A DNA stretch of 20,294 bases, taken from a virus. The stretch's first letter is position 1, and every line of letters begins with the position of its first letter. This document shows positions 1-14,364 of this stretch, one piece after another. The notes under the pieces were generated by a model, which was not told the DNA's origin, made no database searches, and saw nothing but the letters and a program-made list of their open reading frames with translations. A program made the translations under genes and the position numbers. The stretch covers positions 1 to 20,294 of the IMG/VR virus record IMGVR_UViG_3300020810_000016. One strand, given 5' to 3'.

Positions 1-745
1 GTAGTTTTGTTAGAATAGTTGTAAGAGATTTTGCCTTAAACAGATGAGCCTCATCACCAACAATACACCCAAATTGTTCAAAGTAACTTTTTGGAAACTT
101 GTAGATAGACTGCCAAGTAGAAATGACAACACGTTTAGTTACATTCTTATCATGTCCACTATAAATCTTCTGCATATACTCTTCTTGCCATCCATAGTCG
201 ATAAAGTCAGAATACATCTGTTCAACTAGAGATGTTGTAGGAACAAGAATAAGAATTTTATCTGTTGCTTCTTTTTCTAAAAGCAACATATAATATCTTA
301 CCAAAATATAGATTATAAGTGACTTACCAGAAGCGGTAGGACTAAGAAGAAGGGCCCTATGGTTTCTAATAGCATAATCCACGGCATCAACTTGATAATC
401 ACGAGGTTTGATATTTCTTCCATTGGATCGAAGTCTAAGCTGTCTAATGAATCCATCAAGAGTTGCTCTGTCGATTGTTTTTTCATTTTTTAGTTCCTCA
501 CTAATTTCATAATTGTCACCATAGTCATCTAAGTATTTTATTAGATAGGGTAACAGTCCAGCATATAGTTCTCCAGTTGCTGGAGAAAATAATCTAATTT
601 TACCATCCCAAATTCGGTTACGATATGCGGGCATAAACTTTGCCCCCGGCACCTCAAATGTAAAGAAGTCGGCCAAAGCACGAGCAGTGCTTCGTTCTGT
701 ATCTACATAAAGATACACCTCATTCTTTTTTGAGATATTTGTCAT
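1..745 (-). CDS. uvsW: UvsW-like superfamily 2 DNA/RNA helicase, N-terminal part (cut by window edge)
   Basis: An open frame starts with ATG at 745-743 and runs off the left edge (about 248 codons). T4 UvsW is a superfamily 2 helicase that unwinds branched DNA and R-loops and shifts replication from origin-dependent to recombination-dependent initiation. Visible landmarks are a small N-terminal domain with RIWDGKIRLFSP (residues about 44-55, T4 has a close counterpart), a Q-motif-like region PRDYQVDAV (114-122), Walker A SPTASGKS (135-142), motif Ia LVPTTSLVEQM (168-177) and the Walker B DEAH box (231-234). The C-terminal RecA-like domain lies outside the window. The start codon shares one base with the uvsY stop (TAATG), so the two are probably translationally coupled. 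Gene order uvsY-uvsW agrees with T4-like phages. Confidence 0.93.
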   Translation of the reverse strand, partial: MTNISKKNEVYLYVDTERSTARALADFFTFEVPGAKFMPAYRNRIWDGKIRLFSPATGELYAGLLPYLIKYLDDYGDNYEISEELKNEKTIDRATLDGFIRQLRLRSNGRNIKPRDYQVDAVDYAIRNHRALLLSPTASGKSLIIYILVRYYMLLLEKEATDKILILVPTTSLVEQMYSDFIDYGWQEEYMQKIYSGHDKNVTKRVVISTWQSIYKFPKSYFEQFGCIVGDEAHLFKAKSLTTILTKL

Positions 746-1173
746 TAAATAGCACCGTCAACAAACTTACGCCATTCAATTGCATTCTTAATATCCCATC
801 CACGCTGTTGTATCTGTTTTAGAATTCGTTCACACGAATCTACGCACATAGAATAGTATTCCACCTTCTGTTTAAGTTTGATGAGTTCTTCATCAGACTC
901 TAAGTAGATAGGTAAATCTTGTTTTAGAATTTTATGATCGAAAGGATTATCACGATATACTTCTGGTGATGATTTACCACCATAGTATTCCCATTTCTGT
1001 CTATACTTTACTTTATAATTACCTTCATTCATCAATTTCATTTGACGAAAATTATTATAGATAGTAAGGTATTTTTGATGGAGAGATGCAGAACGAAGAG
1101 ATTCGTCTGCGAGTTCCAAATCATCTATTTTCAGGTCTTTTTCAGCCTGTGATTGTAATTCATCAAGTGTCAT
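745..1173 (-). CDS. uvsY: UvsY-like recombination mediator protein
   Basis: This 142-aa protein (T4 UvsY is 137 aa) is rich in Lys/Glu and predicted mostly helical. In T4, UvsY loads the UvsX recombinase onto gp32-covered single-stranded DNA. The central signature VKYRQKWEYYGGKSSPEVY (about residues 55-73) is the recognisable feature of the family, followed by a helical C-terminal part with two cysteines (about 110-114) that presumably serves oligomerisation. Translation starts at ATG 1173 with AAGGATG (1189-1183) nine bases upstream. The gene overlaps uvsW by one base. It follows a 125-nt untranslated region holding a late promoter and a strongly base-paired leader, described separately. Placement after the capsid block and before uvsW supports the call. 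Confidence 0.92.
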   Translation of the reverse strand: MTLDELQSQAEKDLKIDDLELADESLRSASLHQKYLTIYNNFRQMKLMNEGNYKVKYRQKWEYYGGKSSPEVYRDNPFDHKILKQDLPIYLESDEELIKLKQKVEYYSMCVDSCERILKQIQQRGWDIKNAIEWRKFVDGAI

Positions 1174-1200
1174 TATTTTTCACATCCTTAATAATAAAAG

Positions 1201-1291
1201 TGAGCAGTGATTGGTTAGAACTTGCTGTTCTATATTATCTCACTGAGGAGACTCAAAGTTGATTGTTCAAGTCAACCTTATCATCTGCTCA
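1201..1291 (-). ncRNA. structured 5' leader RNA of uvsY (candidate)
   Basis: The transcript predicted from the late promoter at 1303-1296 would begin near base 1290 and fold at once. A 7-bp stem UGAGCAG/CUGCUCA (1291-1285 with 1207-1201) continues after one bulged A into UGAU/AUCA (1283-1280 with 1211-1208), then a small internal loop, then GGUU/AACC (1277-1274 with 1216-1213). That makes 15 base pairs. The enclosed region holds a hairpin AGAAC-AGCAA-GUUCU directly next to the long stem, and weaker options such as GACU/AGUC. The structure ends 11 bases before the uvsY ribosome binding site. A role in mRNA stability or translational control is inferred. The base pairing is read directly. Confidence 0.55.
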
Positions 1292-1295
1292 TACT

Positions 1296-1303
1296 TATTT
1301 ATA
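1296..1303 (-). promoter_or_regulatory. T4-type late promoter (TATAAATA) for uvsY-uvsW
   Basis: Minus-strand TATAAATA is an exact match to the T4 late promoter -10 consensus. It overlaps the stop codon of the preceding gene (1301-1299). With the T4 spacing the transcript starts near base 1290, the first pairs of the leader stem. Confidence 0.75.
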
Positions 1304-1847
1304 ACCTACGAATTTCGAAGTCTGTAAACTTAAATGTTGCAGACGCAGTAAGACTTGCCACATCAGTGTCTTGAACAGTAAAATCGACTCCAGTAAGTTC
1401 TGTTGGGAACATTCCTTTGTATGTAATTTGCAATATAGGGTTATTTTTATTTGACAGAATAGTAAGTGTCCCATCACTAAACATAGAAGAGACACCACCA
1501 CCAGGCTGTGTGTCTGTATTAGAATTTGTCATATCACTAAATTGCTCTCTACTATTAGGAAATCCTACTCCAATAATCCAATTATAAATTTCTTCCCAAT
1601 TCTCATAAGTTTCATTTATCAGAAATTCTAAAGTTAAGTCACTATATTCAACACTATCGCCCGCTACAAAAATGTCCTTAAATGGTGTGCTAATTCTTGC
1701 ATCACCACTTAAAGTAACTGTTGGAAGATTTGCCTTTGTGACAAAATACTCTACTTCTGGTAATCTATTAATAGAAAACCTAAACTGAGATGCTGAAGCA
1801 TAATCTAAGTTTGTTGGTAATCTACTTAATGCTTTTAATTCTGCCAT
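1299..1847 (-). CDS. tail-tube-fold protein (gp19 paralogue; possibly the gp3 tail-terminator equivalent)
   Basis: This 182-aa protein shares with tail tube proteins the opening pattern FRFSINRLPEVEYFVTKANLP (about residues 22-42), a midsection GDSVEYSDLTLEFLINE (63-79) and the helix YENWEEIYNWIIGVG (80-94). The true tube gene 19 at 7457-7990 has the same layout (FKVLLTAPG, EFFVKGASLPG, GDREFEPWTTTIIND), so this looks like a second copy of the fold. From memory, marine T4-like phages carry a tail completion or tube-like gene between 23 and uvsY, often labelled gp3 or tail tube. Its own late promoter lies 23 bases upstream, and AAGGA sits before the ATG. It could be a tail terminator, a baseplate tube initiator (gp54/gp48 type) or a minor tube subunit. 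The sequence alone does not decide. Confidence 0.6.
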   Translation of the reverse strand: MAELKALSRLPTNLDYASASQFRFSINRLPEVEYFVTKANLPTVTLSGDARISTPFKDIFVAGDSVEYSDLTLEFLINETYENWEEIYNWIIGVGFPNSREQFSDMTNSNTDTQPGGGVSSMFSDGTLTILSNKNNPILQITYKGMFPTELTGVDFTVQDTDVASLTASATFKFTDFEIRRL

Positions 1848-5878: not shown

Positions 5879-7393
5879 TTATTCTCCTTTAGTGGGGTCA
5901 TTTTGAGCATAGAAGTCATCTCCGCCTGCAGCATCTTCACCACCACCTTCATTTTCAATTTGTCCATCAATCTCATCAATTTCTTCATCAGTGAGTCTGA
6001 GGATATTCTTTTTAACATATTCTTTAGAGAAGTATGTTCCAACATAAGATTCGATTTGTCCAAGCATATCCAATCTTTCTCTTAGAATTTCCGTATTCTT
6101 CAGTTCTGTAAAGTGACCATCTTGCAGATAATCAAACTGAATGTGTTCTTTAAGTGAATCCCACTCTTCAGTGGCAATAACACCCTTTAGGATAAGTTGT
6201 GTTCTAAGCATATCTGAGAACATAACTGCAAATCTTTTACGAAGTCTTTGAACAAACTTTGTAAATTTAAGTTCGTCACGAGTAATGTTATCAGAACGTC
6301 CAATAGAAAAGTTGTTTTCAGCTTCTAGTCTTGAAATAGGAACATTCAATGAACGATAGAGTTTCTTTTTAAAATATTCAATATCGTCAATCTCACCAAG
6401 GTTTGAACCGCCAGGCAAGGTTGTAATCTCTGTTCCTCTACCACCTTCTCTACGAGGCAACCAAAAGTCTTCTAACATTGACATATGGTTTCTATCATCT
6501 CTGATTTCACCAGTTCTTGCATCATATACCAACTTGTTACGATAACGATTCATAACATCTTTTAGGTATTGTTCTGCCTTTGCCTTTGGTAGATTACCAA
6601 CGTCAATATAAAAGATACGTCTTTCGGGCGCACGAGAGATACGATAGATAACCAACGCATCTTCAATCATTCGCAACTGATTGACAGGTTTAATTGCTTT
6701 ATGTAAATGTGAAAGGACTGTTCCTTTTTGTGCGTCTATTTGACCAGAAGGACAGTATGTAATTGAATCGGCAGTGATACGAATACCAGAAGTAGAACCA
6801 CTGGTTTGATCAATACCCTTTTCATTATACAAATAAAATTCCTCGACACCTTTAATAATGTCAGTTCCCTTGTCACTCTTATCTTTACGAACTTCACGAA
6901 CCTTTCGAATTTTACGAGGGTCAATGTAACGAAGTTCTTGAATACCAAGAGATGGATTTTTCTTATCAATCACTTTATGATAGTATAATCTACCATCAAC
7001 ATACCAACGCCTAAAAATGTCATGTCCTTTGGCATTAAAGTCCAAAAGAGATAACACGGTGTTGAATTCTTCTCTGATTTTTCTTTTAATTTTATCAGAA
7101 TATTCTAGTCTATCTAAAGATATAGAAACCGATTGGTCTCTTTCGTCTGATACAACAGCCTCATTAACAATATCTTCAATTGCCATGTCACACTCTGGTT
7201 GCATAGCAATGTCACGATATCTACGAATTAAGTCAATTTCTGACCTATCTCTTCCGTCAATATCGAGTAGTTGAGTAAAAAACCCACCACCAGCAATATC
7301 AAATGCACCGTCATCAGAAGTGGGAAGAGTGAAACCATCACTCTTCCCCTCATCTTTTGCTCTAGTTATTCTAAATCCAAACAGTTCAGCCAT
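5879..7393 (-). CDS. 20: portal vertex protein gp20
   Basis: This 504-aa protein (T4 gp20 is 524 aa) forms the dodecameric portal through which DNA is packaged and to which the neck attaches. Diagnostic stretches shared with T4 are FRRWYVDGRLYYHKVIDKKNPS (about residues 104-125), LRYIDPRKIRKVREV (134-148), DALVIYRISRAPERRIFYIDVGNLP (about 245-269) and ITRDELKFTKFVQRLRKRF (about 368-386). The C-terminal tail is acidic, with a Gly/Glu/Asp-rich low-complexity end, as in relatives. It has its own late promoter and the ribosome binding site AGGAG, and leads a run 20-67-(83 aa)-(82 aa)-21. Confidence 0.97.
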   Translation of the reverse strand: MAELFGFRITRAKDEGKSDGFTLPTSDDGAFDIAGGGFFTQLLDIDGRDRSEIDLIRRYRDIAMQPECDMAIEDIVNEAVVSDERDQSVSISLDRLEYSDKIKRKIREEFNTVLSLLDFNAKGHDIFRRWYVDGRLYYHKVIDKKNPSLGIQELRYIDPRKIRKVREVRKDKSDKGTDIIKGVEEFYLYNEKGIDQTSGSTSGIRITADSITYCPSGQIDAQKGTVLSHLHKAIKPVNQLRMIEDALVIYRISRAPERRIFYIDVGNLPKAKAEQYLKDVMNRYRNKLVYDARTGEIRDDRNHMSMLEDFWLPRREGGRGTEITTLPGGSNLGEIDDIEYFKKKLYRSLNVPISRLEAENNFSIGRSDNITRDELKFTKFVQRLRKRFAVMFSDMLRTQLILKGVIATEEWDSLKEHIQFDYLQDGHFTELKNTEILRERLDMLGQIESYVGTYFSKEYVKKNILRLTDEEIDEIDGQIENEGGGEDAAGGDDFYAQNDPTKGE

Positions 7394-10579: not shown

Positions 10580-12226
10580 TTACCATTCTGTATCATGTGA
10601 ACGAACCACTGGACTCCAACGAGTTCCATATTCATCAACAACAGTCTCTCCATATGGGGACTGTAATCCATCATCCATGAATCCGAATGGAGCCATATCC
10701 TGTTCTAGTTGATGTTGTTGTTCCATAAACATTCTAGCACGAATATCATCGTCAGTCAACTCTTTAAAGTATGTTTGTTGAATTAACCAAGAAAAGAGAA
10801 CACAACACATTGCAAGGTCATCTGAGTGTCCATCTTCTGCTTCAAAGGTTTGTCCCTTGAGTATAAATGTAGAAAACTCATTGATTAGATCGTAATCTTG
10901 AATAATTAATTTATCTGTTTCAATAATTTGTTTAAGATTAGAGCAACCTAGTTTTTTAACCGCCTTTGTTGTTCTTACCCCAAGTTGTGCCTTTCCACCG
11001 CTAAACCCACCGCCAACGACTTGACCCGCACGACCACGCATGCTTGCCATTATAAGGTTCTCATACTCTAAGTCAAATTGTAGAGCAGTAGCAACCTGTT
11101 CACCGATATCATTTACCTCAACCATTACATAAGCTTGGTTATATGCATTTGCAACATCATGAATTATATTTGGATATAGAAGAGGTTTTATCTCATTGTT
11201 TCTATATTTTGCAGCAATAGTATAAGGAACGGTTGTCACATCAAACACAATAAATGCAGAATAGTCATTTCTTGTTCCTCTTGCAACGTCACAAATAATT
11301 GTGTATATGTGATCTGGTTGTGGTTTAACATATAAGTCTAATCCAGCATTTGACTTTATAGGATTCATATAAGCCATTGTTTTAATTTTTGCTGGATTGA
11401 TTAGTGTATTTGCAGAACCTAAGAACTCACACTCAAACTCTCTTCTGAACTGTTCTTCAGAAGTGTTTGCAATTGTTTCTTCTCTCCATTTATCATCTCT
11501 GCCTGGAACTTGACTCCAATGAACATCTATGATATTATAAGAATTTCGTTTGTTCTCTGCATCAGTCCATAACTTGTAGAACATGTTCATACCATTAGGA
11601 GTTGATACGATAACAACTTTAGTAGACTTACCAGATGAAATTGTAGGATATACTGAACTAAAGAAGTCCTCTGCAACATTATGTGGAACGAATGCAAATT
11701 CGTCTAAGAACAACATATTGTAAGAACCACCACGAACAGCAGATGATGATGTAGAAGATGCAACGACACGAGAACCATTCTCTAAGTCCACAGAACCTTT
11801 GTTCCATGACACTACCCCTTGCTGTAACCACTTAGGTAGGTTTTCGTATGCAAGTTGAAGTCTTCCAAGAATATCTCTTGCAGTTGCAGCCTTGTTCGCA
11901 AGGATTGCCACGTTCATATTCGCATTGAACAGAACATAATGCAAAACATAAGATACCAGTGTTGTGGACTTACCAGACTGTCGAGGAAGTTTACAAATCG
12001 TAAAACGATTGTTGTGAATTGTTTCTACAATATCTTCTTGAAAATCATACATCTCAAAGGGAACTAATCCCTCATCCAAAGAAACAATACGAATATAGTT
12101 CTTAATGAAATATATGGGATCTTCCATACACTTCTGATATTCTACGATTTGTTCCTTAGTCCACTCTACAGGAACATTGGATTTTTTTAGTAGTGGATTT
12201 CCAAGATAGTGATCATAATTTGCCAT
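10580..12226 (-). CDS. 17: terminase large subunit gp17 (packaging ATPase and nuclease)
   Basis: This 548-aa motor protein (T4 gp17 is 610 aa) translocates DNA into proheads and cuts concatemers. The ATPase domain shows Walker A PRQSGKST (residues 81-88), Walker B MLFLDE (171-176) and coupling motif VSTPNG (207-212). The RNase H-like nuclease domain shows acidic residues in ICDVARG (D313), VMVEVND (E370) and GHSDDLAM (D469/D470). The N-terminus (GNPLLKKSNVPVEWTKEQIVEY) is the usual marine T4-like opening. The start is ATG 12226. I see no clear Shine-Dalgarno sequence before it, unlike most neighbours. It lies 16 bases after a fibre-like gene that separates it from gene 16. Confidence 0.97.
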   Translation of the reverse strand: MANYDHYLGNPLLKKSNVPVEWTKEQIVEYQKCMEDPIYFIKNYIRIVSLDEGLVPFEMYDFQEDIVETIHNNRFTICKLPRQSGKSTTLVSYVLHYVLFNANMNVAILANKAATARDILGRLQLAYENLPKWLQQGVVSWNKGSVDLENGSRVVASSTSSSAVRGGSYNMLFLDEFAFVPHNVAEDFFSSVYPTISSGKSTKVVIVSTPNGMNMFYKLWTDAENKRNSYNIIDVHWSQVPGRDDKWREETIANTSEEQFRREFECEFLGSANTLINPAKIKTMAYMNPIKSNAGLDLYVKPQPDHIYTIICDVARGTRNDYSAFIVFDVTTVPYTIAAKYRNNEIKPLLYPNIIHDVANAYNQAYVMVEVNDIGEQVATALQFDLEYENLIMASMRGRAGQVVGGGFSGGKAQLGVRTTKAVKKLGCSNLKQIIETDKLIIQDYDLINEFSTFILKGQTFEAEDGHSDDLAMCCVLFSWLIQQTYFKELTDDDIRARMFMEQQHQLEQDMAPFGFMDDGLQSPYGETVVDEYGTRWSPVVRSHDTEW

Positions 12227-12242
12227 AACATAGTTCTAATTT

Positions 12243-13205
12243 TTAAGTTGCAGTAAAGTATACAAAATTAAATTGTAAAGTAACATTTGTTCTATTATCT
12301 GCTTTTCTTAAAGAGTTGCCGGTTTTTGCAGCGTAGTATGATGACTCTTTATCACTATCTGTTAATACTGCAGCAGCGCTCCCGCCTGGCCAAGCAAGAA
12401 CAGGCATCCATCCAGAGCCTGGATTAGAACCATCACTTTGCCGTTCTAGATTTCTCCAAGCATGTGATGTTGTTGCACCAGAATCAGTAGGAACAAAAGG
12501 TAGTGTGCAATTACAAGTAATATTAGAATCGACTTGGGACGAAAGTTGGAAATAGGCTTCGGATGTGTTGCCTTCCGACAACCTAAATGGGCCTTCAACT
12601 GCAACCAATCTTCCAATTTTTGCATACTTCATTTTGAGTGTTTCTGATCCACCACCAGCATCACTGAGTTGTATATTAAATGTGCCTTCTTCATAATCGT
12701 CAAGGGCGTTGTTGCCAGAGGTGTCTCCGTTGAAGGTAAGGCCACCACCGGCCAAAAGCCGCATACGTTCTGTTGGACTTGTTTCACCAACATTACACGT
12801 TAGAAAACTAATATACCCGCCGTCAGAACCATTTATTGCTTGTGCAAGATCAATCTGACTAACAATACCACGATTAGATTTGCCTATAATCCGACCACCA
12901 GCAGTTATTGCGTCTAGGGATTGTTTGCTTGTGATATGACCATTGGAGTCAACAGTTACTTGACCGCCACTGGTTGTGATATCCAGATCGGTTGAAGGGC
13001 TACTAGTGCCAATGCCTACTCTGTTATTTACAGAGTCAACTACAAGAGTGTCTGTATCCAGTGTGGTTGCACCAGTAACATCTAGTGTTCCAGCAATCGC
13101 AATATTAGTGTCTAACTTTGCAGAGGTAATCTGCCCGTCAGCAATATCTGCTGTAGCAACTGTGGTATCTCCTAATGAACGAGAACTGATTTTTCTAATT
13201 GCCAT
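12243..13205 (-). CDS. fibre-like virion protein inserted between genes 16 and 17
   Basis: This 320-aa protein has a short N-terminus MAIRKISSRSLGDTTVATAD like that of the other fibre gene at 13621-14364. A beta-repeat shaft follows: TADIADGQITSAKL, GTLDVTGATTLDTDTLVVDS, and NNRVGIGTSSPSTDLDI at about residues 60-77, a phrase very common in marine phage tail fibres. After GNNALDDYEEGTFNIQLSDAGG (about 164-185) comes a globular beta domain with CNCTLPF, probably the receptor-binding tip. The ATG shares a base with the gene 16 stop (TAATG). A trimeric appendage on the neck or tail is likely. The exact attachment site is unknown. Confidence 0.75.
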   Translation of the reverse strand: MAIRKISSRSLGDTTVATADIADGQITSAKLDTNIAIAGTLDVTGATTLDTDTLVVDSVNNRVGIGTSSPSTDLDITTSGGQVTVDSNGHITSKQSLDAITAGGRIIGKSNRGIVSQIDLAQAINGSDGGYISFLTCNVGETSPTERMRLLAGGGLTFNGDTSGNNALDDYEEGTFNIQLSDAGGGSETLKMKYAKIGRLVAVEGPFRLSEGNTSEAYFQLSSQVDSNITCNCTLPFVPTDSGATTSHAWRNLERQSDGSNPGSGWMPVLAWPGGSAAAVLTDSDKESSYYAAKTGNSLRKADNRTNVTLQFNFVYFTAT

Positions 13206-13621
13206 TATTCTTTCCCTTTAAGCATTTTTTGTAATTCAGCAGTAGAACCGACAAACAATGCGTTTGTAACATTCTTTGGTGCAGAGTTAGGAACTTCTTT
13301 AAGTTTCTTCATCTTTGTCTGCAAGTCACCTAGTTTTTCAGTAACCTCTGCTACTTGTTTAATTAAATTTCCAGCAACCTCATAACTGCGAGGATGGTCT
13401 GATTCTCTTGCAAGTTCAAGAATACCATCAATAGCATCCTGTCCTCTTTCAATCAGATTATAAAAGTTTTCTCTCTGATATTTATAATCATTATCTATGT
13501 CTTGTTCATCTAGAGTTGTTGTTGGAACAAGAACAGGTTTTGGTGGAGTAACCTCTTTTGTTGTTTTCTCCACTACATCTGTTATACCAAGAACATTATC
13601 CAGAATTTCTTCTTGTCGCAT
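13205..13621 (-). CDS. 16: terminase small subunit gp16
   Basis: This 138-aa helical protein (T4 gp16 is 164 aa) is the DNA-recognition and stimulatory subunit for gp17. Similar to T4, it has a variable N-terminus, then DIDNDYKYQRENFYNLIERGQDAIDGILELARESDHPRSYEVAGNLI (about residues 42-88; T4: DLEDDYGVVRRNMHFQQQM..., TAKNADSPRHMEVFATLM), and a coiled-coil stretch EKLGDLQTKMKKLKEV (about 94-109). AGGG lies before the ATG. Both ends overlap fibre-like genes by one base (TAATG on each side), so three genes are read as a coupled set. This separation of 16 from both 15 and 17 is not the T4 arrangement. Confidence 0.93.
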   Translation of the reverse strand: MRQEEILDNVLGITDVVEKTTKEVTPPKPVLVPTTTLDEQDIDNDYKYQRENFYNLIERGQDAIDGILELARESDHPRSYEVAGNLIKQVAEVTEKLGDLQTKMKKLKEVPNSAPKNVTNALFVGSTAELQKMLKGKE

Positions 13622-14364
13622 TAGTAGACCCTAATTCCCCACCAGTAAGTTACAGAGTTGTCATCAAAACTTGAAGAACCAGAAGTAATTTGAGAACCGC
13701 CGGCATTCAAATCCCATGTTCCGCCATCTGAATTAACAAAAACTGAAAATCGGTATCTATAATCAGCAGTAGGCTGGATGACGTGCATGTATGATGCAGT
13801 TAGAGTTGCGCCGTCTTGGTCAGATGAACCATCATAGTATCTTTGAGAGTTACAAAACACATCACTCCAAGTAGAACCTCCGTTTGTTGACTGTTGAACG
13901 CCAATTGATACATCCCTTAAAGCTTCAGCATTATCGGTATCAAATCCGGCTGATATACCAAAAATCCAGAACTGTGCTTCACCGTATGTTGATAGATTGG
14001 GTGTCCATGTGTTGTTTGCATCCCCAGAAAACCCATCAGTGGAATCATAATCAACTACTCCATTTGTATTAAATGGAACTACATATTCAGTGTTATCAGT
14101 GAGGTTATTCGCTGCAGTAGTGATTCTAAATCTAAAATAGTCTCTGAATTCTAGTTTGTTCGATTGGATGGCTCCTACCGCCATTTTATCATTAGTAATG
14201 GCACTATTTGCAATCTTTGCCGTAGTGATATTTGAATCTAATATTTTGGCCGTAGTGACGGCACCATCTGAGATTTCGGAAACGGTAACAGAGTTTGCTG
14301 CTAAATCTTCTGCAACAATAACGTCTGTTCCAATCATTTGTGATGTAATTCTTTGAATTGCCAT
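13621..14364 (-). CDS. fibre-like virion protein inserted between genes 15 and 16
   Basis: This 247-aa protein begins MAIQRITSQMIGTDVIVAED, then a short repetitive shaft of about ten-residue units (VTVSEISDGAVTTAKILDSN, ITTAKIANSAITNDKMAVGA) to residue 70. A compact beta-rich C-terminal domain (about 75-247) ends YWWGIRVY. The shaft pattern (AxTxAKIxDxxIT) is common in marine phage fibre proteins. The C-terminal domain, with a cysteine near 171 and regular beta strands, could be a TNF/C1q-like jelly roll binding a surface sugar, but that is a guess. The N-terminus is shared with the 320-aa fibre on the other side of gene 16, suggesting a common docking site. A probable variant late promoter lies upstream. 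Confidence 0.75.
   Translation of the reverse strand: MAIQRITSQMIGTDVIVAEDLAANSVTVSEISDGAVTTAKILDSNITTAKIANSAITNDKMAVGAIQSNKLEFRDYFRFRITTAANNLTDNTEYVVPFNTNGVVDYDSTDGFSGDANNTWTPNLSTYGEAQFWIFGISAGFDTDNAEALRDVSIGVQQSTNGGSTWSDVFCNSQRYYDGSSDQDGATLTASYMHVIQPTADYRYRFSVFVNSDGGTWDLNAGGSQITSGSSSFDDNSVTYWWGIRVY

Follow-up and report, generated by a model that had tools for sequence, protein, structure and literature searches.

The 20,294-nt stretch of viral DNA analyzed here (the window) carries a gene with the tail-tube fold (1299..1847; PHROG 45, E 5.8e-31) upstream of uvsY (745..1173; PHROG 231, E 8.2e-50), which is followed in the same unit by an incomplete gene for a uvsW-like DNA helicase (2..745; PHROG 16259, E 6.8e-81), all on the minus strand. 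A predicted T4-type late promoter, TATAAATA, occupies 1296..1303 on the same strand, and the stop codon of the tail-tube gene falls within it, at letters 3-5. The window contains nine copies of TATAAATA, compared to 1.2 expected by chance. Placed by T4 promoter geometry, the predicted transcription start (+1) is base 1290, the G of GAGCAG. The initial annotation had described a base-paired leader of 91 nt; the predicted uvsY leader is 117 nt long (1290 to 1174), and within it lies a conserved structured RNA of 89 nt (1202..1290, minus strand) that begins at the predicted +1 and scores 76.1 bits (E 2.8e-15) with covariance model R1. In the related phage Melnitz, a strong intrinsic terminator-like site (L468:29202-29231; Melnitz 129202-129231) lies directly 3' of gene 23 and parts the capsid gene from the tail-tube/uvsY unit.

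Folding of the uvsY leader

The stem segments that the initial annotation had drawn were verified at their coordinates, and the leader folded better than dinucleotide-shuffled sequence. The region 1201-1290 reached -27.0 kcal/mol (z -3.84), a value equaled by 1 of 200 shuffles, and the longer region 1174-1291 gave a z of -2.56. As had been proposed, the other late leaders in the window have no comparable structure: the 90 nt 3' of the other eight TATAAATA sites gave z-scores from +0.60 to -1.29, compared to -3.72 at the uvsY site. Across 71 relatives, the leader fold had a median z of -3.31, and the nucleotide at the predicted +1 was paired in the relatives' folds with a mean probability of 0.95. 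Downstream of two other TATAAATA sites in Melnitz (MZ577096, 30924 and 50110), the next 90 nt fold fairly stably (-20.5 and -19.3 kcal/mol), and these may be further structured late leaders.

Distribution among marine T4-like phages

Relatives were collected from viral contigs by UvsY-based and pattern searches, which together gave several hundred loci. In the UvsY-based sets, the element was present at every uvsY locus with intact upstream sequence, and the loci missed by our first regular expression were contig ends or a spacing variant. A covariance model based on the rod described below recovered the element in ~110 distinct forms from two deep clades of marine T4-like phages, and the stem is retained in both. 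UvsY is 41-48% identical between the clades. Divergent members of clade 2 were first found by the covariance model among contigs fetched for another reason. The clade was gathered with a pattern made from the 5' strands alone, which returned 62 contigs, 61 of them members by the covariance model. One scan pattern was too narrow, with ten matches and a single, already known element.

The sole matches in the phage collection were the cultured Melnitz phages, four strains infecting an OM43 methylotroph; Melnitz-2, the strain that we examined, carries the element. There is one copy per genome in Melnitz and in the long contigs. A candidate second copy in Melnitz was rejected, as the 20-nt match at 7360-7379 is antisense within a coding gene. 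HTVC008M, Mosig, and the cyanophages S-SSM7 and P-HM2 lack the element both upstream of uvsY and in their whole genomes, and four pattern matches in bacterial genomes were all due to chance.

Architecture and covariation

The core shared by the relatives consists of helix P1 (GAGCAG/CUGCUC), a long-range helix GGU-NN-ACUUN/N'AAGU-ACC, and a hairpin, P3. In the window, where all strands of the element read on the minus strand, the 5' strand of P1 (1285..1290) pairs with the 3' strand at 1202..1207, as it does in 83/83 sequences of a combined alignment, with a compensatory C-G/U-A change at one pair. The long-range helix, P1b/P1c, joins GGU-UG-ACUUG (1268..1277) to CAAGU-UCUA-ACC (1213..1224) and covaries among relatives: GGU/ACC becomes GAU/AUC in clade 2, and the final pair is G-C, U-A or A-U. 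All five pairs of P3 (GUCUC, 1248..1252; GAGAU, 1237..1241) show compensatory changes. In clade 2, ACUUU pairs with AGAGU via U.G, and some members have a longer P3. It is well supported that the element forms a closed rod, made of P1, the interrupted helix P1b/P1c of 8-10 bp, and an apical P3 that can lengthen. Of the 15-bp interrupted stem proposed initially, P1 and the GGU/ACC part are conserved, whereas UGAU/AUCA is confined to the window's own subclade.

An internal stretch, AAUAUA (1231..1236), is unpaired in the model and conserved in both clades as AANNUA: the A, A, U and A are each present in 72/72 clade 1 sequences, and the motif in 39/39 of clade 2. Binding of a ligand or a protein, which the initial annotation had raised, is possible, given conserved loop residues outside all model helices. 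In four clade 2 elements (L471, L473, L480, and L514), P3 carries an extra hairpin, UAGUGA...UCACUA, as a peripheral extension. We rejected two other hairpins as general features: P2 (GGUG/CACC) fails in L088- and L005-type sequences, and ACUUNAA/UUUGAGU pairs in 52-69 of 72 cells per pair.

To describe clade 1, we aligned its 72 distinct sequences by hand. They share the skeleton GAG[C/U]AG - linker - GGU - NN - ACUU - N ... N' - AAGU - ACC - linker - CU[A/G]CUC, in which N/N' is G-C in 46 sequences, U-A in 17, A-U in 6, and a mismatch in 3. The combined alignment of both clades (83 sequences), which was fitted to the structure and is biased in its favor, had 96.1% of cells paired, compared to 38-50% with the partner slid by 1-3 columns. 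Compensatory changes in the stem were found: double-change cells numbered 168 in this alignment and 58 in shuffles, with 0 of 500 shuffles as high. Because clade 2 was selected by 5' strands only, its 3' strands provide an independent test, and in 38/38 distinct sequences they match for all six pairs of P1 and all three of P1b.

In a custom tree-aware test of the 72 sequences, N/N' ranked highest among 5356 column pairs, and some of the ranks just below were taken by pairs of P1 and P3; no single pair was significant (best N/N', E 0.18), because these sites changed only 2-3 times. RNAalifold returned the full rod without P3 from the first 62 sequences, and P1 and P3 only, plus one implausible pair, from the combined alignment. 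Cells with G.U far outnumbered those with A.C (93 and 6, respectively), which places the structure on the mRNA strand rather than on DNA or the opposite strand. We consider it well supported that this is a real element, a conserved structured RNA at the 5' end of a T4-type late transcript, directly after the promoter.

The strand AAGUUC is complementary both to GAACUU, with which it forms P1c, and to GAAC, with which it forms an alternative local hairpin, P4 (5' strand GAAC, 1227..1230; 3' strand GUUC, 1218..1221). The inner AGAAC/GUUCU hairpin that had been placed beside the stem can form, but its 3' strand is common to the conserved helix ACUUG/CAAGU, so that the two are mutually exclusive. 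GAAC covaries with GUUC in most of clade 1, and changes in AAGUUC are tracked by both partners in much of it. As a caveat to the rod, the computed single-sequence folds often prefer P4 over P1c: mean pairing probabilities were 0.56 and 0.37, respectively, and 0.91 and 0.09 in the window sequence. P4 is lost in L005, L008, and L448 and was not seen in several clade 2 members, while P1c is retained nearly everywhere; we therefore take the conserved core to be the rod, with P4 as an alternative to it. Judging by these predicted pairings, the RNA of most clade 1 members may exist in two forms, with P1c or with P4.

Relation to the late promoter and the neighboring genes

The sole constant partner of the element is the late promoter. 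In all distinct forms with upstream sequence (97/97), 4-6 nt separate the end of TATAAATA from the first base that pairs (5 nt in 83 of them), and several of our searches had not selected for the promoter. T4 geometry places +1 at the first base of P1 or the one after it. This strict spacing supports a 5'-terminal role, as in the initial annotation; the protection from decay that went with it is something we infer, and we return to it below.

In most relatives the element begins ~12 nt after the tail-tube gene, and it ends 19-30 nt before the AUG. In L490, L500, and L512, another gene comes directly after the element, and uvsY is at a distance of 2.2-2.6 kb. In L490, the interval between element and uvsY (11349-13888) encodes a PP-loop (SGGIDS) protein without a Pfam match and a tryptophan halogenase (PF04820, E 1.4e-47), a couple that is unusual inside a T4-like late region. 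In L473, it is the tail-tube gene that cargo related to that of L500 has moved 2.2 kb from the element, while element and promoter stay together. The cargo in L500 and L473 (reverse strand) is ~2.2 kb long (456 or 437 aa, ~75 aa, plus a third gene). In these two related contigs it flanks opposite ends of the promoter-element unit, as though either the site of insertion or the unit itself had shifted.

Since either neighboring gene can be displaced while the promoter is constant, UvsY-specific control is unlikely, and the displaced neighbors also count against a structure that serves the 3' end of the tail-tube mRNA. The autogenous control by UvsY suggested in the initial annotation was not supported, given the genes that intervene before uvsY in L490, L500, and L512 and a Shine-Dalgarno (SD) region that is not specifically masked: in the relatives' folds it was on average 0.58 unpaired, and no conserved masking was seen across them.

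Possible functions

The independence of both neighboring genes points to control at the level of the transcript or the polymerase, not of a single gene. The reading that we favor, with a probability of about 0.4, is that a paired 5' terminus and probably a bound protein protect the late mRNA from 5'-end-dependent decay. The element would act on the whole transcript rather than on uvsY: the paired terminus, together with a protein recognizing the invariant internal residues, would shield the mRNA of a recombination/replication unit (uvsY, uvsW, then gp55 and 46/47-type genes in Melnitz), and this shielding would set the late output of the unit. As a caveat, the invariant internal sequence exceeds the needs of plain 5' protection. 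In T4 itself, the role of RppH is not established, according to a review (PMC3014915).

Could the element instead be a leader, riboswitch-like or an autogenous operator, that responds to a ligand or protein and controls translation of the first gene through a P1c/P4 switch? The complementarity of AAGUUC to two partners that both track it in much of clade 1, and pairing probabilities divided between P1c and P4, speak for such a switch. P1, however, forms in both states, the element stops short of the AUG by 19-30 nt, the first gene varies among relatives, and P4 is absent from L005-type sequences and was not observed in several members of clade 2. Nor did we find a conserved expression platform, either an SD mask or a terminator. 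The U-tract after P1 is not universal, and an intrinsic terminator was rejected for this reason. A riboswitch is possible despite this lack, and a responsive leader as a whole strikes us as possible but doubtful.

Rather doubtful, too, is a broader proposal, in which the element would represent a new promoter-locked class of nascent RNA, a T4-like counterpart of HK022 put, which, bound to a phage factor or to the late transcription complex, programs the elongation, stability or R-loop avoidance of the following unit, possibly with P1c/P4 strand exchange as a switch. A put-like RNA in the narrower sense would bind the elongating late-modified RNA polymerase and alter pausing or termination downstream; HK022 put itself binds the beta' zinc-binding domain of polymerase and suppresses termination. 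Put-like action fits the placement of the element as well as 5'-end protection does: placement and gene-independence are as in HK022 putL (PMC9378689), the promoter alone is constant among relatives, and conserved internal residues lie outside the helices. We nevertheless judge it unlikely, because put consists of two adjacent stem-loops near the promoter and the element is one nested rod with an apical P3, the ~11.5 kb that follow in Melnitz showed no strong terminator on the plus strand, Rfam gave no match, and transcription here is late, not early.

The position of the element ~12 nt after the tail-tube gene in most relatives, and the finding of no terminator between that gene and uvsY in Melnitz, would suit a 3'-end, processing or insulator structure of the upstream tail-tube mRNA. 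We regard this as quite unlikely: in L473 the element has stayed with the promoter, 2.2 kb from the tail-tube gene, the U-tract is variable as noted above, and the fixed spacing to TATAAATA would be left unexplained.

The oriF origin of T4 is located at uvsY, which brings to mind a DNA-level element, either an oriF-like origin with a transcript R-loop or a leader that suppresses R-loops at the late promoter. R-loops at oriF come from MotA-dependent middle-promoter transcripts, and those at origins are removed by UvsW (PMC3016281). Here, however, the promoter is of the late rather than the middle type, the excess of G.U over A.C indicates that selection acts on the RNA strand, the GC skew of Melnitz follows a monotonic course without a turn at uvsY, and R-loop formation in T4 needs no specific sequence (PMC3016281), all of which makes such an element very improbable. 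Finally, chance structure or shared ancestry without function, although individual pairs fail the tree-aware test, is scarcely credible when fold and promoter spacing persist between clades with UvsY 41-48% identical partner strands outside selection match in 38/38 sequences, and pairing in the combined alignment falls to 38-50% in slid controls.

Comparison with known systems

A conserved RNA fold belongs to a single late transcription unit in T4-like phages that are abundant in marine waters, and its cultured carrier Melnitz (host OM43 strain H5P1) makes it experimentally testable. Searched with Rfam 15, the window matched no family at the gathering cut-off, and a local search to E 10 gave two chance-level snoRNA matches; the relatives likewise had none at gathering, with only chance-level matches in divergent members. 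A tRNA or cloverleaf mimic was rejected, as neither ARAGORN nor Rfam returned a tRNA match and P4 is not universal. Our literature search, with subscription journals largely outside its coverage, found no description of the element, which is apparently undescribed.

The gene 32 leader of T4 and RB69 forms a pseudoknot that is bound by gp32 and controls its own gene. It resembles the element in being a structured leader found in a T4-type phage before a gene for a recombination protein. It differs in being a pseudoknot, whereas the element is a nested rod and is in some relatives followed first by a gene other than uvsY. In the accessible part of the Melnitz paper, a glnA-type glutamine riboswitch is reported near ssrA and the uvsY-leader element is not mentioned (PMC9004378). 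That riboswitch is also a structured regulatory RNA of the same phage, but at another locus, and the uvsY-leader element has no Rfam family. The translation-inhibiting structure in T4 gene e mRNA is likewise tied to late promoters in a T4-type phage; there, the 5' strand is missing from late transcripts, which avoid the structure, whereas here the whole structure lies downstream of the promoter, in the late transcript, and a gene e-type structure was rejected for its wrong geometry (PMC3014915).

HK022 putL lies just downstream of PL, is ~70 nt long, and acts without a dedicated protein factor (PMC9378689). The put sites differ from the element in having two stem-loops, early lambdoid promoters and demonstrated antitermination, compared to a rod, a T4-type late promoter and a function that we infer. 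Like putL and putR, however, the element is a structured RNA that would act in cis, and, as with putL (PMC9378689), it is placed at the predicted start of a phage transcript and would act whichever gene comes first.
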